The translations under genes and the position numbers were made by a program. The notes under the pieces were generated by a model that was not told the origin of the DNA, searched no databases, and saw only the letters and a list, made by a program, of their open reading frames with translations. From assembly GCF_964355755.1 (NCBI RefSeq), contig NC_092675.1, positions 20,908,912-20,972,911 of the forward strand: DNA of 64,000 nt, written 5' to 3'. Shown here piece by piece: positions 40,162-62,983 of this stretch (position 1 is its first letter; the number at the start of each line of letters is the position of its first letter). The stretch comes from Antedon mediterranea. Its lineage: Eukaryota; Echinodermata; Crinoidea; Comatulida; Antedonidae.

Positions 40162-43100
40162 CTAAGATCAGAACAAGTGATATTAGACACTGGTAAACAA
40201 AATTATGGAGTATCCCATATCATCAGTATATAAGTATAACTTTGTCATTTTATTGGTATGTATTGTATGTTGTACATTATTTGGATCCATCCTCACGATT
40301 GCACATTCAGGTTTTTGTAAAAATGTGTACCACATCTTGATACAAGGTAGAGTGTGCTGTCTATAAAACTCTGTCTACACTATTAAATTTGATGTGAATG
40401 TGCACATATATGGACATGATGATGTCATAACACTACCATATTTGGGCACATCACACTTTTTTTGGTCTTAACTCTGGGAGCCAAATTCTGAGCATCACAT
40501 TTTTTTCTAGTCATTGACATTTGATTCAATATGGAAAACAGTGGGGATCTACTGGATGCATGTTAGACTTGAAAACTTTATTCATTTACATCTAACCCGC
40601 CAAAACTATATTTGTACCTTAAGATTGCTTCCATACTGTGGTATTCACAGACTTTCCTAAAAAGCAGATTTTCTTGTAAACATGCTAATGGTTTAAGTCC
40701 CAGGATTCTCAGCAAGCAAAATATTTTGAAAGTAAAAACACCAAAAGCGCAACTAACCTTTATAGTTTTATTGAACTTTGAGGGCGCATCAAAGACGGCC
40801 TTGCACTGATCGATGCAGATGTTCACGCCTTTCACTGCTTCACGTACTTCATATGGCAGTTGGCTTCCAAGAGTTTGGTAAACGTACGACGCAGTTCGTA
40901 TATCATTCTGCACTTCTAGAAGGTATGTGGTATACCCCTGTAAGAACAAATATTGGTTGGTTTTTAAAAAGTGTAAATAGACAATGAAAATGGACTGAGT
41001 TACACAGACATCATAAGGGATCATATACTTAAGAATTTTTTAAAAAATACGTTTAAACTTTATTCCCTGAAATAAATTCATAAAAGGCTTGCAATTTCAT
41101 TTACAATATTTTAATCTTCTAATGCAATTTATAAATGTTCCCTAGTTTTAATGCATGTAAATAGCAATTTTTTCTGACATATAAAATACAGATAAACAAA
41201 ATGTTATTGTAGTGATGTTCGAGGATGGTGTCAAGCTATGGTGAAAGCTTGGTACCGAAGGCCACCACTGGATTAATGTTCCTCCATTAAAATAAACACA
41301 ACTAATAGCCATGAGATGAAGCTAATGTTGCCAAGAACTGGAGGGTAGTTTGGTCACTATCTTTAAGTATCTCAATAGTTAGATAGTGGAGAATGTGGAA
41401 TGTACTGTACTGTAAATAGTATATATTATGTAATAGTATTAATAGTATTATTATTATTATTAGTATATAGTATAGCATGCTATAGTTGCATAGCATTTGC
41501 AAATATTGAACTGGCGATTTTGGTTGTATTAATGGAAGTTTCCACAGTACAATATATGGTTGATTAACATCTCAAAATGCAATTTACAGTTTACGTGCAA
41601 TATAGGTACCATAAACAAAGTAAACTTTTAAACTAATATAAACAAAATATAGTTTTGTTAGTTATTTCATAGAATCTTCAATTTTAAAGACGATAGGTTT
41701 CTTAATAGAGTATATATCAACAACCCAAAGATGAAATTGAAAGTGAAAATGACAAGAATCGGTTGTCAATAAGATTGATGATGTATTAACAAGAACTGCA
41801 CAAGATTACTTTAGTTTTGAAAAAAAAATAATAAAGAAATTGCAATAACATAATAAATTTGTTCTCTGTAATTGGTTTAGATTCTACTACATGAATATTT
41901 CAAGTATAGAAGAAACAGATTTGAGCACAATAAAGTGGACAGGAATTTAGCCATCAGTATAACAAACGAAAAATGAAAATGGTATACACACATTGGTTCT
42001 ACTACACAAACCTCATAAGACATAGTTTTAAGCATGGGTTTAATTACAATCCTAAAAAAGGAATAGAGGGGAATGGAAAAAGAGAATGGAAGATTATGGG
42101 TAATATAGAGAGAAAGATAGGGTGGAGAGACATGGGGTGATGAGAAAAGGAAGATTGAGAAAGGAAAGGGAGAGGTTGAGATGAGAGAGGAAGGGAAGAG
42201 ATAGCTGATCACACAAAGCAACCCAAATCAATGTAATCCAAGCCTGCATCAGTTAACATAATGTTTAATTATTTGTTTTTTTGCACCGGTTATGATCCAG
42301 TGACCAGTTACTTATCATGAACTTGTGGAAGTACACCTTTAATTTATGGTGAACAAGCTTTATATTTTGTACTATTGTATTTTATATTTTCGTGAATAAA
42401 TAAAGATTTTAATTTGATCCAATTTGTGGAATTTCTGTATAAAAAAAAACTAATCATTGCCTCACCTCTTCCGAGTTTAGAAGCGACCTATGGGAAATGT
42501 CGGTTGCACCAGAGATGTGGGCCAATGCTGCCGCCAGAACCAGTTCAGGATCTTTCTCCTCTAATAATGCCTTAGCTGCTGGTCTGAAGTGATCAACAAC
42601 ATCTTCAGATATTTCATCTAAAAATCTGAAAAGATAAATGTAAGACAATAATATTAAGAATTACACAATTACTAATATTTTTTAATTTACCTAGTTTTTA
42701 ATAAAAATAAATAAAAGATAATATGGGTTTTAAACAGTACATAGACAAAATAAACTCAAAATTTCTGCCAGCAGGTGGATGAAAAAAAAAACTATCCAAA
42801 AATGTTTTGGTTAGGTGCTGGACGAAAGGACTTTAAAAAAGCTGTAGGCTTGGGTAGTGAAACCATTTGAAGATGAGGTCTCCGCCCATCTCGACGGGCA
42901 AAATTACAACCTTATGTAGTGATGTTCGAGGATGGTGTCAAGCTATGATGAAAGCTTGGTACCGAAGGCCACCACTGGATTAATGTTCCTCCATTAAAAT
43001 AAACACAACTAATAGCCATGGGAAGAAGCTAATGTTGCCAAGAACTGGAGGGTTGGAAAATAAATGCTTGCACTTGATATTTCATCTCTCAAAATGCAAT

Positions 43101-46100
43101 GCAGTAAAGATATTGCACAAGTAAAGTAATAACTTACTTTGTGACATCATTGGCCGACGATTTGATGATGTCCTTGGGCTGTGGAGCACCAATACGTTTA
43201 AACTTTATTCCCTGAAATTAAATTCATAAAAGGCTTGCAATTTCATTTACAATATTTTAATCTTCTAATGCAATTTCTAAATGTTCTCTAGTTTTAATGC
43301 ATGTAATAACAATGTTTTCATAAAAAAATACAGATCAACAAAATCTTATTGTAGTGATGTTCGAGGATGGTGTCAAGCTATGGTGAAAGCTTAGTACCGA
43401 AGGCCACCACTGGATTAATGTTCCTCCATTTAAATAAACACAACTAATAGCCATGAGATGAAGCTAATGTTGCCAAGAACTGGAGGGTAGTTTGGTCACT
43501 ATTTTTAAGTATCTCAATAGTTAGATAGTGGAGAATGTGGAATGTACTGTACTGTAAATAGTAAGAACAAGTCACGATAACATATTCTCACCAGCATTAT
43601 AAGACCACTGTCAATAATCATTGAGTGGACGGGGGTCCCTTGAGGGAAGAAACAGGACAAGATCCCTAACCATGGCAAGTAAGGCAGCGCATACGCACCT
43701 GGTTTTCAGTTTACAATTTCAATTCCGAAAACATAGTACATGTGCAAATGAACGAATTTCAAGTAAGGTTATGTCAATATTCCTTGTGCGACTGTCAGTG
43801 TTGCTTTGTTTTAGTTGCTTAGAACTTTTATAGATACTAAGTAGTATATTAATTTTTCATAAAATAAGTGAAACACTTACTGCTCTTTGCTCTACTTTAG
43901 ATAATTCCCATTCTTCATTTGGTTTATAGAAACATATGCATGTACCTTTCCTATTGGCACGACCTGTACGGCCAGATCTGTGTATATAGTCTTCTACATC
44001 CTAAAGAAAAAGATAAAGTAGAATAATGCAAAGCCACAAAAAGATAGCATTAATAACTAAACTATCATATCACAAAAAATAAGTAGCTGCATTTTAACGT
44101 AACATAATCATATAAAGCGAGCGAGTGGCCGAGCGGTTAAGACAGTGGAACCATAATATGTAGCCATAACATCGGCAAGGGTTCGAGGTTCACTCACTCC
44201 ATGGTTCTGGTGGTAGAACAAGTCACCTCAGATAAGGACTATAAACCGTAGGTCCAGTGTACACATCTGGCTCATGTGCACTTTAAAGAACCTAGTCCAT
44301 CTTTCCAGACGAGTAGGGGGTTACCTTGGTGTACTAGTTCATACACAGCTGGGGTAGCACTAACATTTCATTTTGTTTAGCCATTTGGCGAAAGTCAAAA
44401 TATTTTTTTTAGTCAAATCAGTTTATCTATAGCCAAAATGGCTAAAGTCAATTTTTTTTATTTAGCCAAATGAATCGGTTTATAGCCAAAATTTAAAATT
44501 TTTGAAATATAGTGGTAAAAACATTTTAGTCAATTTATCTATGTCAACAGGTCTATACACTGTTCCCTGAACATTTTTGTAAGGCATTGAGATAAAGAAC
44601 CATGCCTAAATCACTGTATGATTAAAAAAAATATTTTTTTTGTATTTTTTTTACATGATCAAAACAATTGTTCAAATTGTTTTTAATCATACAGCATTCA
44701 TACAGTTATCAATTTAATAATAAACATTTTACAGTTTTCTGAAATCCCCTGAACGCTATGTTACTTTTGTTTTTTTACGCTTGGCTGGTCATTCATTCCA
44801 TGGCGTACCAGGCGAAAATCGTGTCCTAGAATCACCGCCGCGCAGCGGGTTAATGTTTTTAAATTGGGTATGCTCAAGAGGTGCGAAAGTGCAGAACCGC
44901 CGGCCTAGGCCTACAAAATTATGTACAACGCCGCAACGGTATATCGTATGCTAAAAATATTTAGGAAAATTCCTAGCAAACGAACACTCGTATCGCTGTT
45001 AAATGTAAGATAATATAGGCCAAAGTACAGAGTACACGTCTTTCCATCCCTCAAGGCTGCGCCGAAGCGTTTCTGTCAGGGCGAGAAATTTATCCCGATT
45101 ATTATCACTTTGTTATTATTTATTTACACAACACAGAAGCCGGTGGCCGGCCCCGCTCAGATGCACGTGTGTGTTTAGCTAAATCCCCGTTAAACTCTAC
45201 CATTTCCCGCATGTTGTTTTGTTTACACTGACGCACGAGGGAAGTTTATTAAGGGTAAAATATGAAACTACATTAAATTGGAAGACTCTAAAATGCATAA
45301 CGCATACATTTTTCATTTCGATAAGATTAAGACGTCATTCATCGAAGATACTATAATGTTTCTTTTTAATCTGAAAGTACACCCCTATCGAAAAATAGAC
45401 AATCCCGGTAATTAGCCGACCGTCGGCTACGTAGTCGATCGTTTGTGCAGCGCACAACACGTGATAGTTTGGGTAGACTTCATCATCCATGTGTCGTGTA
45501 ACGTCTGTCTCTCTCTGTGCAGTCTACCTCTGCTGCTGCTATCTCCATCTTTTTGAAATAACAAAGAGACGCCTGGTACAACGAAACAAGTTGACGAAAA
45601 ATGGAGCTTGAAGTAAACAACGTGATAACGAACAAAATAAATGCTTGGAGATCGACAAATGGACCTTTTAGTTGGACTTTATGCTTTCGCCAAAATGATT
45701 ATTTAATTATCTATTTTATCATATGTCATCGCCAAAATGGCTAAAGTAGCCGTTTTATTTTTCGCCAATCTAGAAATGTTTTCGCCCATGGCGACTTGGC
45801 GATCGGCCAGTGCGAGCCTAGCACAGCCACTGTCACAAACTCATCATTACATACACTGGGCCCTCTGGGAGAACAGTTTTAGACTGAAAAGGCTACCCAG
45901 TATAAAGATTAAATAAATAAATAAATAAAAAAAATCTTTTTTTCTTGTTGCACTAAAAGCAAAGTACTTTACATTACAATATGTACAGAATTATTTTAAT
46001 AATGAAATAATCTGTAGTGATGTTCGAGGATGGTGTCAAGCTATGGTGAAAGCTTGGTACCGAAGGCCACCACTGGATTACTGTTCCTCCATTAAAATAA

Positions 46101-49100
46101 ACACAACTAATAGCCATGAGAAGAAGCTAATGTTGCCAAGAACTGGAGGGTAGTTAGTAACTGTTGTTAATTTTAAACACTAGCTTTTTTTACTGAATTT
46201 TAATTCTTTAATTTATTTAATAATCTTCTAGTAGATGAGCTTTTACCTTTGGTGGATTACATTGTATAACAAGTTCAACTTCTGGAATGTCAAGACCTCG
46301 AGCTGCAACATCTGTTGTTACTAAACACATTACTTTGCCTTCACGAAAACACTGCAAAAACAAAAACATTGTTTTTTACAACAAATGAATTGGTACAGTA
46401 GAACCAATCCTTTGGTACACCTCTATTCAGGGAACACTATGAAAAAACACTTTCATGTGAATTAAACAACACCCCCTATTTAGGACACATTTTTAGAGAC
46501 TCCTTGGGAAAGATAGCCGAACTACTTCCTAAATATAACTAAACCTAACCCTCTAAATTTTCTATTCGCTCAGTATAAAGTAAAAATAAGTTGGTCATGG
46601 GATTCGAACCCCATACATCAACATGCAAAGTCTATAGTCTAATTGACTCGACTACACAGATGGCTTGACGAAATGCGTTTTCATTACCTAATTGTAGTAA
46701 GGTCAATTATTACATCACACCTTATCGATATGACTAATGAATATTCATGTTTATTTTGTGACCTTTCATAAGGGGTCACAACCTTATGTACGAAATGAAA
46801 TATCACATTCAGGACACATTAATACAGTACATGAAACGAATATATATTTAAACACTCCAGTTAACAGGTCATTTGATTGTTTCCCAAAGAAAACCCCATA
46901 ATAGTTTTACTGCATTATAATTACACAACCAAAAACAAGAAATAAAATTGTCTTACAACAGGAAATTAATCAAATAACATTTTAAATAAAAGCACAATCA
47001 AATAAGAAACAGGAAAAATCCTATGTACATCATGAAGTATTGTCCGGAAGGAATTTTAGCATTATTTTAAGAGCACATATGGTGTATGTACAGTACCTGG
47101 AAGGATTATCACAAACTCTGAATGAATACCAGATGAGCTACTTAAATATTCTTTTCTTTAGGCACATTGGCAAAAATTGTTAACCAGGCCTTGTCTTTTA
47201 GGGCGAGCTAGTACGATCACTTGCCCAACACACTCCTAAACTGCCCTTGACGAGTGCAATTTACAACACGCTTAAATTTGGTAAACTTCTACACACCAAA
47301 ATACAAACAGCACACCTACAAGCATTCCTGAATGTATTGAGGAGTGCAATTTGTAGCACACCTATAATTTTCAAATGACAAGGCCTAGTTAACAATGAAT
47401 ATAATCACCGTCCTTCACTGTGTCTTACCCTTAATGTGATTTCTCGCTGTTGTTGGGCTATGTCTCCATGCAATACCTGAGCCTCTTGCTTAATGACCGA
47501 GTTGAATGCTAGTTCATTGGCTTCCTTCTTGGTCTGGCAAAATACCATTGACCGTCCGTGATGACCGCTATACACCTTGATCACGTCACTGATGGTAGCT
47601 GCACGGTCTTTCCAACCACACTTAATAGCCATATGCTGAAGAAATATGACCAATACAATTTTAACCTTATTATTCTAATTTTTTCACAGTAACTTTTTTA
47701 TTTTAAAGTATGTATTTAAATATAAATAAAAAAGGAAAATAAATACAACAATTGAATAGATGCTGTCTTTCCATATATATATATAATTTATTAATTAAAT
47801 TTCAGTATATTACCGGGCGGTTTAGAATTAATGTTCTTTGCCTGATTTGTTTATATATATATATATTGCACTGATGAAGGGCTAGTGTTGTCCAAAAGCT
47901 CTGTTAACTTTTCTGGCTGTTTTACTTATCGTTTTGATTTAGCTTGTCACTTTTTTTTTGTATCTCCATTGAGATCCAGCCACTGATACCCACAGCATTG
48001 TAATTTTTTCAGTAATTTGCCTTTGGATTTATATATATATATATATATTTTATTTAGCTTATCGCTTTTTTTTTTTGTAACTCCATTGAGATCCAGCCAC
48101 TGATACCCACAGCATTGTCATTTTTTCAGTAATTTGCCTTTGGATTTATATATATTTATTTGTAAATAAACCCAAGTTGGTTAACTTTCCAAAAAAGTTT
48201 GTATTGTATTTCCAATTGTTTATTGTACATGTAAAAGGATCTTTTTTTTCATGAAAGGTCATATAATTGTAAAATATATTCTAATTGTATTTAAAGTGAC
48301 TTTTATTCTCTATATATCCATGCACATGTGCTCTCAAAAGGGTTACACATCTTGATTGGTCAATCTTCTGATATATTTTTTGGTTTATTTGAATAGCTCG
48401 TCTATTATAGCATACCTGGACAGTTGTTGCGGTCCTACGTGTATCCCCTCCTATAAGATCAACTCGTTTTGTGTTGGGCTTCATGTATTTCTTTGCTGTG
48501 TCATGTACCCATTTAGGTAGTGTTGCTGAGAATAACAGTGTCTGAGGGCTACGCTTTTCATCTCCAGCGTCTAAAACAAGAAATGGAACATGTAAAGTTT
48601 ATTCATTGTAGAACTACATTCAATTAATTATTAATAAAAATAATTTAAAAAGAAATATACAGTATATATGTGTATGTATGAAGACATATTTAATAAATAA
48701 TTAAAACTTATACTAAATTTACATTGCCAAGCGTCATGTCCAGATACATTCTTCAGACCCAACTGAGTAACCCAGGAATGACACTGCATGTTGCATGTAT
48801 TTACATTGCCAAGTGTCATGTCCAGATACATTCTTCAGACCCAACTGAGTAACCCAGGAATGAGACTGCATGTTGCATGTATTTACACTGCCTTGGCAAA
48901 TTTGTGTTTCTTTTATGGATTAGTCCAAATCCTGTCCTCTCACACATTAAAAGGCATCCTAGTAATATTGTGTTGGAATCAAATACTAAAGTGAACAAAA
49001 ATAAGCAAGAAACATTGACAAAGCTGTTTAAACTTTGAACACAGGAATGTCGTGAGTTGATATCATACTTTCCTTACCCAGGTGGTTAAGCAAACCAGAA

Positions 49101-52100
49101 AAATATTGACACTGGCCACGTTTGTGTGATTGAAATATATATTTATACTGGGTAACCTCTTCAGTCAAAGACTGGTCTCCCAGAGGGCCCAGTTATGATC
49201 AGTGGCTGTGATGTACTAATACACTGACTGGGGTAACCCTCTACTGTCTCGAAAGATGTACTAGGTTCTTTAAAGTGCACACGAGCTAGATGTGTACACT
49301 GGACCTACAGTTTATAGTCCTTATCGTCGCTTGTTTAACTCCGGTTACACAATTTTGGATTAAATCCACACTTTTTCTGGCAGTGCAAAAGGGGTAAAAT
49401 AAATACTAACCAAGTTTATAAACGGACATCAAGATTTCCTCCACTGGGTCAGCAAATCCCATATCCAGCATCCGGTCAACTTCGTCCAGTACAACATGGT
49501 TAACTTGGCTTAAGTTTAGTGTCTTCCGCCTTACGTAATCCAGTACTCTTCCAGGTGTTCCTACCAGGACATCGATGCCATGTCGGATGGCAGTCTCTTG
49601 AGGCCAGTAAGCTGTTCCACCATAGATGCAGGTGACAGTTAAAGAATCATTGATGGCTTCAAAATCTTCAGATACCTGTACAAAATATTAATTGCAATTT
49701 AGAGTCAAAACTAAATGACAATATATATCTTTTTATAATGCAAATATACTTATCTAGAGCGATCAGTTAACAAGTTTATTGAAAATAGGACAGTTATTGC
49801 CATTTGGAAGTTAATTAATCTCTAAACACTGGCAACATGAACAGTTGACACATGCGTGGTACTCTCTCTCCTACAATGACGTAATGCCTAATTGATGACA
49901 AAATATAATTGTGTCATCAATCAAATACAATGAGAAATAACTGTTATTTCTTTCTTCAGTGCAAATTCTACTTACCTGTTTGGCAAGCTCTCTGGTTGGT
50001 GCAAGGACTAACACCTTAGGTGGTCTACCACTTTTCTTGGGAGTATCTTTTAATTTTTCAGTGAGAGGCACTGCAAACGAAAATGTTTTTCCTGTTCCAG
50101 TACCTACAAAATAATAAGTTAGTAGCAACACCTTGTTTCAGAATAAAGCTAATAAAGGTCCTCTATCTTAATTTGTTTAAAAAAAATATCAATACACTAT
50201 CAACTGTATACTGTTTTGAACGATGCACATTTTTTGGGCTGGCCTCAATAACTACATACAGATTCTCATACATGTTGTACATCTTCATCAAGATCAATGA
50301 CATGACACGACACCATATGACATGACATCACATGCCATGACACTACATGACATGGCGATCTTCAGTTCAGATTTACAATGCTACACAAATATTCCATGAA
50401 TCTAACCAGTGTTATTATTTCAATCTTTTCCCAATCATCCATCTTGTAGTGATGTTCGAGGATGGTGTCAAGCTATGGTGAAAGCTTGGTACCGAAGGCC
50501 ATCACTGGATTAATGTTCCTCCATTAAAATAAACACAACTAATAGCCATGGGATGAAGCTAATGTTGCCAAGAACTGGAGGGTATATTGATCACACCATA
50601 GACGGTGTTAACAATTATTTGGAAAACCATTATTACTACTTCTGAAAACTCAGTTTTACTAGGACCTACTGCAACATCCTTTTCAATTCTAATAGCAATT
50701 CTTGCAAATCTTGCTTGAAATACTACATTCAGGAAAACATGAAATGAATGAAGAATAACTTACGAGCTTGGGCAATGACATCAACACCGCTGTAGACGTC
50801 ATCAAATGTTTTTGATTGAATTGGAAACAAGTACTTGACACCACGTTCTAAAATAAAAAAAAATATTGTGGTTATTTGTTTTCATTTTTTTTTTTTTTTT
50901 CAATAACTTTTATTTTCTCCTTTTATCAAAAACATTACACTCAACAGAACGAAACAAAAAGGAAAACCAAAGACGTTTGAGGACGTCACATTATCTCAAT
51001 CGTCATTCTCTTTTTTCATTATCTCTTTCATTTCAATGTTTGATATACCACAAATACCTCATCATAATCATTTCTTAAGTTAAACCTGGCTATAATAACC
51101 CCTTGTCAATAATGATTACCCAGTTTTGCATTTTCAACTCTTATTCCTTAATTTAGTTTACAATACGTTTTTGATATGGACATTATACTTATTTCAATTT
51201 TTTGCAATATTATTCTCCACAGTTTTTGTAAAAAAGTACCCAGAAAAGAAGAAAGAAAATCAAAGACGCGTGAGGACGTCACATTATAATATTTGATTAA
51301 ATCACCATACCTCATCATAATCATTTCTTAGTTTAAACCAGGCTATTATAACATATTAACAATAATAGTTACAAAGTTTTGCATTATTAACTCCTATACC
51401 TTGATTTGGTTTACAAAGTCAAATTCTTTTTCCCCTATCCATAATTCACCAAAACAATATAAGAGAAATAAATTGTCAAATTTACTAAGGCGTTACAATG
51501 AATTATTTCAGTTGCTTATGGGTGTATTTCATTCAATTCTCTTTCTAATACTGGTTCCTATTTTTTAATATGGACATTATATTTATTTTTAATTTTTGCG
51601 ATATTATTCTCCACAGTTTCTGTAAAGAGTACCCATCTTTTAAAGTGAAAGAAGTTAAGAGTAATTTCATTTATCTTGCATTTATATATATATCTCTTAA
51701 CAAGAAGTAAAATCATATTAACAAAAGTTGAATATTTATATTAAAAAAAATACCAAAACATATGTCTATATAATTTAATCTAATAGTGATGTCTAATTTC
51801 CTGAACCAATAAAACACATCATCCCACAACTTAGAAGTTTTCTCGCAAGACCACATTAGATGTATTACTGTTTCTTTTTCCTTACTACAAAGAGAACATT
51901 TATTATCTTGAATCAGGCCAATTTTGTGCAATAACTCATTTGTAGGAAGAATTCTATGTATAAATCTGAATTGCAGGTACTGTGTTTTGATATCAAGAGT
52001 ACATTCATAAGGCATCCTATAAATTAAATTCCAATTAACCTTAACAAGATTAGGCTCTTGGTTAAATTCATTACTCCATTTTCTATAAGCCTTTGGGGTT

Positions 52101-55100
52101 ATCTTAAATATATTATTGAGCAAATTGTACACAAAGGTGGTTGTTTTTTTTAAAACTTCCATTAATTGTAATAAAACTGGCGATTTTCTTGTAGGGTTGG
52201 GATTAGCAAATTTTTCTCGGTAATTTTGAGAGATAACATTAACTAAACCAAAAAAAAGAATGAAGTTGCAATTTATAGCATAGGTATTTTTAAATTCAGT
52301 ATATGTCATAAAGCGTTGGTTGTTAAGCCTTACATCTGAAATATAATTTACACCTTTTAAGCTCCATGATCTATAAAATATAGTTTTCTTATTAATTTTA
52401 ATGTTTTGATTGTACCACAATACCTCATCAGATACATCATCACCATAATCATTTCTTAGTTTAAACCAGGCTATTAAAACATCTTGTAAAAAGGAGTTAC
52501 CAAGCTTTTCATAATTAATTCCTATCCCCTGTTTTGGTTTACAAAGCCAGATCCATTCCCCACCGATGCTCAAAATTTGTTTCCTAAATAATTGTTTCCA
52601 TTTTCCGTTCGTGGTTGTGTCTAAAAATCTTTTAACCCAAGTTATTTTTAGGGCTTCATTAAATTTATAAATATTTGTCATTTTTAAACCTCCATTATCC
52701 TTATCGTTATACATAGTCTCTTTTATTTTTCAGCCTACCAATATTTAGAAAGCTGGATTTTGCCTTATTTAATTTCAACCCGGAAATTTTCTATAACTTT
52801 AATTGCATTAGCTATGGATGTTTCAGTTCCATCCAAAATTAGAGTAGTATCATCCGCAAATTGGGTGATTTTTATTTGACTGTCAGGATTAACACAAATT
52901 CCCTTAATACTGTTGTTTTCCCGTATTGCAATGCTCATTATTTCAGCACACAAAATAAAAATATAACAACTAAGTGGGCACCCTTGACGCACGCCCCTTG
53001 TTATTTTAAAATAGTTGGATAGATGTTTTTAATTTAAACAGTTATTTTGTATAGGAAACAGGTAAAATTCTACTTACTAAGTAACAATGCTTTAGTTCTG
53101 GAAGAAATTGGAAATTTGTTCAGATCTCCAAGACGCATTTCTTCTAGCATCTCCTATAAAAGAAATTAACCAGTTATTAACTCAAATCATTAGTTAATAA
53201 AATTGCAATAAAAAATCATTTATATTCAATTCATTTTATATTAATTATTAATAGGATAAATAGGATCAATAAGGTAAAGTAATGATTAGAATTGAACCCT
53301 GGCCAGCACCAGTTGTGGCCCCGGACTCGGGTGCCTACTATCCTAGTAAAAAATCTCAGTATGTCTTAGATGTGTTTTAAGCACATGATACAAAATAATA
53401 TAATATTAATTTAAGTACATTATGGAGTATTAAGAATGAGATACAAAATAATAGTACGAGTAAGAGTAGTTATTCTGTTATTATGTACTTTTTTAAACAT
53501 TTTATGAAAATCTAAATGTTTAAAATAAAAAAAACATACCGGATCAATATCACCATTGGTCTCCTCATCAACAATTTCTTTTTCTTTTTTCACTTTCTTC
53601 TTTTTCTTCTTCTTCTCTACTTTGGTTTCTTCTCCTTGTGAGTCACTTTCACTGTTTTCGTGTTTCCTCTTTTTAGCTTTCTTTTCTTTCTTCACCTTCT
53701 TTTCTTTTTTTACCTCGGTCTCGCCATTTTCTTCAACAACTTCTTCTACTACATCGCTTGTCTGAATTTAGGTGTGAAATTCATTAATTTATATAATTTT
53801 AAGTGTTCTGGATTGTCTGTGTTTAAATCTTAAGTTACTGAGGGCTACAGACAGACACAAAAATTATTACACAACATTATTCTAGACGACAATAACATGT
53901 CTCGTCAAACAGTAGTAGTAGTAGTCAAATGTCATGTAGACAATCGCACAAATTTACGTTTGCACTGTTCCGCATTCAATGCGCGACATTTAATAACACA
54001 TATTGCGGCTTATCACGCAGACAGTAAGTTACGAATAGTTTAAGCCTGAAAATACAGTACAACCTGATCACATGGTCTTCTGCATTGGCCATTTACAACT
54101 GCGTCATTCATAAACCGAGAATGAAGTATGCACAATCATCACAGTGAATATCATTCACTTGTTATTAACTAGTCCCATTTGTATTGTTTTTGGATGATTT
54201 TTTCCAAACAACATATCACTATATATTTTATTTTGATGTTTTATATTTTTTCCAAATTATCATTGCATACAAAAATACAAATATAAAATACAAAGTACTC
54301 ATAATTGATGAGCAGGAGGCACACCTCTATCTACAACATACTCTGTTTTTGTAATTTGTCTGTTTTAAAATGTATTTTATGTATGAACCGAATAAATTCA
54401 ATCAATCAATCAATCAATCTTTGAACAAATAACAATCAAGCAAAAAATAAGTTTGTTATATAGTTATGTTTTATTTAGCGCTATCCAAACTTTTTTAATT
54501 CTTCACTTCAATCAATTACTGTAGTATACACACATTTCACAAAAGGCATAAGTAAAAAAGCACCATATAAAATATTTTAAAGTATAAAAAACACATCAAA
54601 AACTCAGAAAAGAGAACCCAGTTGTGCAACAATGACATTACCAATAGTACTTGATTAGACTTGTAATGAATCCTTTTGTGTGTTTGGTTTTGGTCACTGT
54701 AGTCTAGGGAGGAAAAACTAGGTACTTCTACCTAAAGGTTTTATTGTGCCTCCCTACTGTAGGTTTAGGCAAAAGATGGTAAAGCCTATGTGTAGGCAAT
54801 TTTTGGAAATAATCCCTGCACAACTGGGTGCGCCTATCTGTAGCAAGAAGCGGGATACAGTATAATATTATTCTTGCAAATTCATAGCTAGCACCATGCA
54901 AAATAATCCCTAAAGCTCTACACTGGATTTGTCCAAATTGTTTACGCTGCATTTTCATTAAAGTTCCCAATTCTAAAACGAATATAGGACAAATATTAAA
55001 GATGTATTGTCAAAATATTCTAAATTTAAATTAAAGTCGAAAATTCAAGTAAAAAACAACAAGTTTACGTAATTAACAGGTAAACTAATTTGATTAAATT

Positions 55101-59022: not shown

Positions 59023-59097
59023 CTTGTTAGTTCCCTTCCTGTTGGAATCACTTTTCACCAGCAGAGCCATATAGAGATATTATATCCCAGTGGGCAA

Positions 59098-59950
59098 AAA
59101 TTGGTTGAATTAACGTTAATTCAACGTTATCTGCAAACGTTGAAATAACGTTGAAAAAGTGGTTGAAAATGAAAGTTTGCCTCAACGTAAATGTCAACGT
59201 TGAATCAACATAGAAATTATCAACGTTGAAACAACGTTAAAATAAGTAATGTTGAAATAACGTTGAAAAAATGGTTGAAAATGAAAGTTTGCTTCAACGT
59301 AAATGTCAACGTTGAATCAACATAGAAATTATCAACGTTGAAACAACGTTAAAATAAGTAACGTTGAAATAACGTTGAAAAAATGGTTGAAAATGAAAGT
59401 TTGCCTCAACTTAAATGTCAACGTTGAATCAACATAGAAATTATCAACGTTGAAACAACGTTAAAATAGGTAACGTTGAAATAACGTTGAAAAAATGGTT
59501 GAAAATGAAAGTTTGCCTCAACGTAAATGTCAACGTTGAATCAACATAGAAATTATCAACGTTGAAACAACGTTAAAATAGGTAACGTTGAAATAACGTT
59601 GAAAAAATGGTTGAAAATGAAAGTTTGCCTCAACGTAAATGTCAACGTTGAATCAACATAGAAATTATCAACGTTGAAACAACGTTAAAATAAGTAACGT
59701 TGAAATAACGTTGAAAAAATGGTTGAAAATGAAAGTTTGCCTCAACAAAAATGTCAACGTTGATTCAACATAGATTATCAACGTTGAAACAACGTAAAAA
59801 TGTCTACGTTGAAATTATCAATGTTGATTCAATGTTGAAATTATTAACGTTGAAACAACGTAAATATTAAGTTGAAATGAAAATTTGCATCAATGTAAAT
59901 TTAAACATAGATTTAACGTTGAAATTTGATTTGTTGAATTACTATATCCA
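59098..59950. repeat. 112-bp minisatellite rich in CAACGTTG palindromes
   Basis: The anchor GGTTGAAAATGAAAGTTTGC recurs at 59161, 59273, 59385, 59497, 59609 and 59721, giving an exact 112-bp period. Diverged partial units run on to about 59950. Each unit is itself built from AACGTTGAA-type words, many palindromic (AACGTT). Confidence 0.95.
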
Positions 59951-62168: not shown

Positions 62169-62983
62169 CGCTGTGGCTAAAGATACGGTACCGTATTCTA
62201 ACTTCTGTTTACTAAAGATACGGTAAAATTGCATTACGTCATAACCAGCCAATGGGGTGCTGGTACGTGTGTGACGTCATCGTATAAGGACTTTGTGGAT
62301 TTTTTTCATATCGCGAAAACCATGGAGGTATGGCGAAAACAGTGATCAACCGCATTTTCTTTATGCTTTATTTATCGCTATTATCGCCGTCGTGTGTGAC
62401 AAAAACTAAATGTAGCCTACGTCTGTTATTATTATTGAAAAGCCATGTTGATTTTAATTCTAGAATAGAGAAAACCGTTTTAAAAGAGGCCTAGGCCTAC
62501 TTACTACGTACTATGTATAACCTCATTATATGAGTTTGTTTGTGTAGGGAAAGCGATGCCAGGCTGTGGCCAGCTGCATATGTGTGCTGTGCGCTGATTT
62601 CTGTGACTCGTCAGCCCTGGGGCTACACTGCTGTCTAAATCATAGTATTTAAGGGCCCCTTTATTGTCCGCATTTGCTTGTTGTTTATGGTCACCATTGT
62701 AAACAAAGTTTTAAAAAAATATAGGCCTAAATAGGCCATTTTGAATAAAAAAAAAACCCTCATCTGCAGCGCACACACATCCACGCAGCCTGGCGCCGCC
62801 GATAGGAATTCTCTACATATATACAACCAACAACAGACGCGATATGAAAAAAAATCCAAAGTCCTTATACGATGACGTCACACACGTACCAGCACCCCAT
62901 TGGCTGATTATGACGTAATGCAATTTTACCGTACCTTTAGTAAACAGAAGTTAGAATACGGTACCGTATCTTTAGCCACGGCG
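62169..62983. mobile_element. 815-bp element with ~150-bp TIRs and a perfect 9-bp target duplication
   Basis: The ends CGCTGTGGCTAAAGATACGG and, in inverse, CGCCGTGGCTAAAGATACGG extend for about 150 bp with few differences. Perfect TTAACAAAT copies flank it at 62160-62168 and 62984-62992. Long TIRs with a 9-bp duplication are characteristic of Mutator-like (MULE) elements. The interior encodes no recognisable protein, so it would be non-autonomous. Confidence 0.85.

Follow-up and report, generated by a model that had tools for sequence, protein, structure and literature searches.

Five introns of a crinoid DDX21 gene each carry a probable SNORA57-type H/ACA snoRNA

We analysed a stretch of 64,000 nucleotides (nt) from the crinoid Antedon mediterranea, hereafter the window (RefSeq assembly GCF_964355755.1, contig NC_092675.1, positions 20,908,912 to 20,972,911 of the forward strand), that contains the gene for the nucleolar RNA helicase DDX21. 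Five introns of this gene very probably each carry one copy of an H/ACA small nucleolar RNA (snoRNA), a divergent animal homologue of SNORA57 (U99). The copies are listed in Table 1, with positions counted from the first base of the window.

Location of the copies in DDX21

The core of the element is 139 nt long (ACCCTCC...ACTACA) and is present five times between 41208 and 50583, always on the minus strand, which is the sense of DDX21. Its length is the same in all copies. Any two of them differ at 2-5 of the 139 positions, with seven variable sites across the five. When the exon pieces are placed by translation, each copy falls in a separate intron. The intron numbers used here (4, 9, 10, 11 and 12) are those of the original prediction, made by a model from the DNA letters alone; the relative spacing agrees with them, on the basis of the exon pieces located, from exon 4 onward.

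As for the host, the joined exon pieces identify the DDX21 orthologue. They match PDB entry 6l5m, “Nucleolar RNA helicase 2”, with an E-value of 1.9e-144, and also the Pfam domains DEAD, Helicase_C and GUCT. When the 354-Mb assembly was searched at the DNA level with a single 155-nt copy as query, five matches came back, at exactly the known places (E 2.8e-74 to 1.2e-61), the counts of this search being lower bounds. The number of copies, their places, the host sense, the presence of one copy per intron and the nucleolar helicase as host had all been proposed in the original prediction, and the repeat search, the assembly search and the placement and matches of the exons bear them out.

Two further features lie in the same gene. 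On the minus strand, positions 51713-53028 hold RVT_1 (52765-53028) and zf-RVT (51713-52729) matches to Pfam, probably the remnant of a non-LTR (long terminal repeat) element, in the 5' part of DDX21. An inverted repeat of 80 nt with 94% complementarity (44231-44310 and 49246-49325) spans two DDX21 introns.

Relationship to SNORA57

All five copies match the Rfam family RF00191, SNORA57, over model positions 1-149, with 31.6-34.3 bits and E-values of 4.5e-5 to 2.5e-4, calculated for window positions 40500-51500 (11,001 bases) against 4227 Rfam families. In the model alignment both guide stretches are present, in the same order and in the same hairpins. The curated gathering score of RF00191 is 40 bits. 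Because all scores lie under this value, only the name “SNORA57-type homologue” is used: the copies are homologues of this type and not formal Rfam members. An assembly search with the RF00191 model returned nothing, and since it missed the five known copies too it is uninformative.

The copies share with SNORA57 the H/ACA type, the two hairpins, the guides UUCUUGG (5' pocket) and CUUCGG...AUCCUC (3' pocket) and the predicted targets in 18S ribosomal RNA (rRNA). They differ from it in the lower score, in a 5' hairpin whose upper stem is mostly unmatched, in the right strand of the 5' pocket, in one guide base (GUCUUCG to GCCUUCG) and in being found as five copies in DDX21. The runner-up family is ceN88 (RF01660), nematode by its model name, which has the guide stretches UCUUGG, CCUUCG and CAUCCUC in the same order. 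Its match is weak, with 21.3-25 bits against 40 (E 0.13-1), and is listed for three of the five copies. A literature search for ceN88 by name found no paper; for SNORA57, no title naming an invertebrate was found among titles and abstract beginnings, which does not prove absence.

This relationship changes one part of the original prediction, which had described an H/ACA snoRNA family inside DDX21 introns and had taken it as not previously described. Type, intronic location and host all stand. The novelty is not supported, given that the covariance-model search which the prediction itself had suggested recovers SNORA57 end to end in all five copies, with both guide stretches, so the family is probably one already described. 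An undescribed snoRNA family was rejected as a candidate on the same full-length match, significant in its E-values though sub-threshold in score.

H/ACA architecture

H/ACA snoRNAs are stable and form complexes with dyskerin, NHP2, NOP10 and GAR1; in them the upper stem lies about 14-16 nt before the H box or ACA. The predicted fold of the five copies has two hairpins and a single-stranded hinge, in agreement with the hairpin, ANANNA hinge, hairpin and ACA order that had been read from the sequence at the outset. Per copy, 0-7 of 200 shuffled sequences were as stable, with z-scores between -2.1 and -3.0. The hinge contains an H box of the form ANANNA, which reads ACAUUA in every copy but that of intron 9 (ACAGUA), and an ACA is found near the 3' end in all five. 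In hairpin 2, counted by eye on the fold, 16 nt lead from the upper stem to the ACA, which is also the value first proposed.

In terms of pairing, 34 pairs are kept in every copy, with all 170 of the 170 pair cells standard. Two of the seven variable sites lie in stems (G.U/A-U and C-G/U.G), and both changes keep a standard pair.

Predicted targets in 18S rRNA

In human 18S, SNORA57 is described as a guide for U1004, using an unusual 5' pocket in which three bases are unpaired; the SNORA57 3' pocket is described as able to mediate pseudouridylation of U1045 and U1046 (PMC8522698). With the SNORA57 match, both 18S sites were therefore expected beforehand. The species' own 18S (L002, 1775 nt) contains GCAUUUGCCAAGAAU with U943-945 and AGAGGUUCGAAGGC with U986/987. 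From the third U of GCAUUUGCCAAGAAU to the second U of AGAGGUUCGAAGGC there are 42 nt, the same as from human 1004 to 1046. By this spacing U945 is the equivalent of U1004, and U986 and U987 are the equivalents of U1045 and U1046.

An exact pattern search finds both target sites intact in five of six 18S-like places, while the sixth (L001) is a fragment that holds just the site of the 3' pocket. No 18S pattern was found in viral contigs. L001 itself is a partial 18S match (86.7 bits, model positions 624-1113) on contig C2, apart from the full 18S of L002.

Pairing was scanned over 1061 uridines of the own 18S, 28S and 5.8S, with 200 mononucleotide-shuffled 18S sequences as control. U986 ranks 2 of 1061 for the 3' pocket; for the 5' pocket, U943 ranks 2 and U944 ranks 4. 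The left strand of the 5' pocket forms nine pairs, one of them a wobble, with GCCAAGAAU, and the best geometry leaves three unpaired Us, which recall the three unpaired bases described for SNORA57 (PMC8522698). The strand of hairpin 1 that the original prediction had described as complementary to a conserved 18S stretch, TTCTTGGC, does pair with GCCAAGAA of the own 18S, at the U1004-equivalent site, and it occupies the place of the UUCUUGG stretch in the SNORA57 model.

Guide and target also differ together. At the same place, the own 18S has CGAAGGC and the Rfam 18S consensus CGAAGAC, and the guide is GCCUUCG here, GUCUUCG in the SNORA57 consensus and UCCUUCG in ceN88. The guide GCCUUCG is fully Watson-Crick paired to the own CGAAGGC, as GUCUUCG is to the consensus CGAAGAC, while the crossed combinations leave one wobble or one mismatch. 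Such a matched difference between guide and 18S, at a single base, may be regarded as suggestive.

Origin of the copies

The copies at 41206 and 43347 share an alignment of 377 columns, with 360 identical and 5 gap columns, that extends well beyond the core. The alignment shows that at least one copy arose by a DNA-level duplication within the gene, from intron 10 to intron 12, the direction being given by the fragment of exon that sits in intron 12. Intron 12 thus holds, at 41046-41068 on the minus strand, a stray copy of the intron-10 3' splice site together with 21 bases from the start of the next exon, and this site may act as a decoy in splicing.

The flanks of the remaining pairs were compared over 300 nt per side, with gaps, against the 95% point of 100 shuffles. 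Among the other nine pairs, 17 of 18 comparisons were at or below this point. The exception is the downstream flank of 42915/46013, with a score of 28 against a 95% point of 27 and a shuffle maximum of 35. The sharp end of homology at the same positions, as first described, is thus seen in nine of ten pairs and fails for 41206/43347. The likeness of the other cores may be due to selection, to conversion between copies or to recent copying.

Points against the assignment and alternative explanations

Several observations weigh against the SNORA57-type assignment or its predicted targets. At curated thresholds Rfam gives no match in the window, the best copy having 34.3 of the 40 bits. The minimum-energy fold of hairpin 1 (-18.0 kcal/mol) places 18 nt before the H box, a weak point already raised in the original prediction and real in this fold; with AACA:UGUU as the stem foot instead, the distance is 15 nt, at a cost of 2.8 kcal/mol. 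No compensatory change affecting both bases of a pair was found among the five copies, so that the preserved pairing, which is consistent with selection on the RNA, is weak evidence when taken alone. Within the block shared by 41206 and 43347, mismatches number 2 over the 139 core columns and 10 over the remaining 238, which also contain 5 gap columns; the core is not clearly slower-evolving than its flanks since the duplication. The AC at the covarying place of the Rfam 18S consensus is in lower case, being only moderately conserved.

As for the targets, the edges of the pockets were drawn by hand when SNORA57 was already known, and the ranks shift with them. Of six pocket variants made by hand, two put the expected site at rank 1, two at rank 2 and one at rank 6, and one did not list it. 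The first rank of each pocket is a 28S site, above the expected 18S site. For the 3' pocket, U987 ranks only 20 of 1061, and 8 of 200 shuffles reach the score of U986. For the 5' pocket, U945 scores 0, the right strand pairs poorly (-1.5) and 49 of 200 shuffles have a site as good. In the guide-target check that had been suggested at the start, the 3' pocket alone is noteworthy as a blind prediction, and the 5' pocket is weak. The claim of a 5' target leans on the SNORA57 match, because its de novo finding is not significant against shuffled 18S.

The sub-threshold scores, the largely unmatched upper stem of the 5' hairpin and the different right strand of its pocket would also fit an H/ACA family non-orthologous to SNORA57, resembling it only since the two pockets are directed at the same conserved parts of 18S. 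We consider this very unlikely in view of the end-to-end match, in which both guide stretches keep their order and their hairpins; for two independent pockets to converge in matching order on one pair of sites would be improbable. A different possibility, compatible with the SNORA57 assignment, is that one or more copies are functional and others are relics that give no stable RNA. Differences between copies at seven core sites point in this direction, but all five retain the boxes and the pairing, and none has lost a stem or a guide stretch; we regard such relics as unlikely.

Lastly, a mobile repeat, either a short interspersed nuclear element or a snoRNA-derived retroposon, might have landed five times in DDX21 by chance. 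The end of flank similarity at the core in nine of ten pairs and the reverse transcriptase pieces in the same gene region agree with this, but the five copies share one orientation, one was made by a DNA duplication that included a splice site, and the DNA search of the assembly, whose counts are lower bounds, gives no copies outside DDX21. Many outside copies in both orientations, which the original prediction had named as one finding that would speak against a snoRNA, were looked for in that search and none appeared. The 30-nt flanks contain no convincing target duplications. The longest word that they share was shorter than 4 nt for one copy and measured 4-7 nt for the other four, and a word of at least 7 nt arises in 144 of 2000 shuffles. 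No poly(A) was found in the 30 nt after each of the five copies. A transposon or retroposed repeat was rejected on these grounds, and we hold it to be extremely unlikely.

Precedents and possible role

For a SNORA57-type homologue in DDX21 introns, the following pathway can be proposed. The spliced intron would be trimmed by exonucleases to an RNA of ~142 nt, protected as a small nucleolar ribonucleoprotein and ending 3 nt past the ACA. Dyskerin and its partners would bind this RNA, and the 3' pocket would pair with ...AGAGG[UU]CGAAGGC... of the own 18S and direct pseudouridylation of U986 and/or U987, the equivalents of human U1045/U1046. With less confidence, the 5' pocket would pair GUUCUUGGC with GCCAAGAAU and act at UUU 943-945, the equivalent of human U1004.

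A more speculative idea, and a rather doubtful one, is that the arrangement serves as a dosage device. Most or all of the SNORA57-type guide would then come from DDX21, the five copies would be kept alike, and guide supply and DDX21 production would rise and fall together; one base of the guide would also have co-evolved with an 18S change specific to the lineage.

The arrangement of five copies in DDX21 has precedent: it adds a good example to those already known and does not represent a new kind of RNA. In Xenopus, all six introns of RPS8 are reported to contain the U17 snoRNA (PMC7601244), one H/ACA snoRNA being likewise repeated across the introns of one ribosome-related gene. The host gene is a different one, and U17 is described as acting in 18S processing and not as guiding pseudouridylation. 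SnoRNA paralogues in different introns of one host, by cis-duplication, are also described (PMC8178906, PMC2653536). Human H/ACA copies are reported to arise mostly by retrotransposition and to lie in more than one host (PMC8178906), whereas here all five copies found share one host and a DNA duplication is visible. In a literature search on DDX21, snoRNAs, introns and host genes, none of the titles listed, or the abstract beginnings with them, presents DDX21 as a snoRNA host, which does not prove absence.

The copies extend SNORA57-type guides to an animal where the formal Rfam threshold misses all five, and tie a one-base difference in the guide to the matching base in the own 18S. They also give a clear example of cis-duplication of an H/ACA snoRNA, in which the DNA-level step can be seen and took a splice site along.

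Features of the window

Table 1. Coordinates of the snoRNA copies, the duplicated block and the neighbouring DDX21 exon pieces in the window
Feature	Position	Strand	Remarks
snoRNA copy, intron 12	41205..41346	-	core 41208-41346 plus 3 nt past ACA; SNORA57 33.7 bits
snoRNA copy, intron 11	42912..43053	-	core 42915-43053; SNORA57 32.3 bits
snoRNA copy, intron 10	43347..43488	-	core 43350-43488; SNORA57 31.6 bits
snoRNA copy, intron 9	46010..46151	-	core 46013-46151; SNORA57 33.6 bits; H box ACAGUA, not ACAUUA
snoRNA copy, intron 4	50442..50583	-	core 50445-50583; SNORA57 34.3 bits; hairpin 2 G.U pair changed to A-U
Duplicated block in intron 12	41046..41421	-	from the junction of intron 10 and the next exon, 43191-43563; snoRNA copy, 3' splice site and first 21 exon bases
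DDX21 exon piece (...NSEE)	42466..42624	-	between copies 42912 and 41206
DDX21 exon	43137..43211	-	short, 25 residues; separates copies 43347 and 42912
DDX21 exon piece	43881..44000	-	between copies 46010 and 43347
DDX21 exon piece	46247..46345	-	upstream, in gene sense, of copy 46010
DDX21 exon piece	50765..50830	-	upstream, in gene sense, of copy 50442

Other repeats were seen in the window. A head-to-tail duplication of 82 nt, 98% identical, lies at 48717-48880. Positions 59024-59883 hold a tandem array with a period of 112 nt and six overlapping copies, and at 62169-62983 there is an inverted repeat resembling a miniature inverted-repeat transposable element, with arms of 137 nt that are 95% complementary and 541 nt apart.

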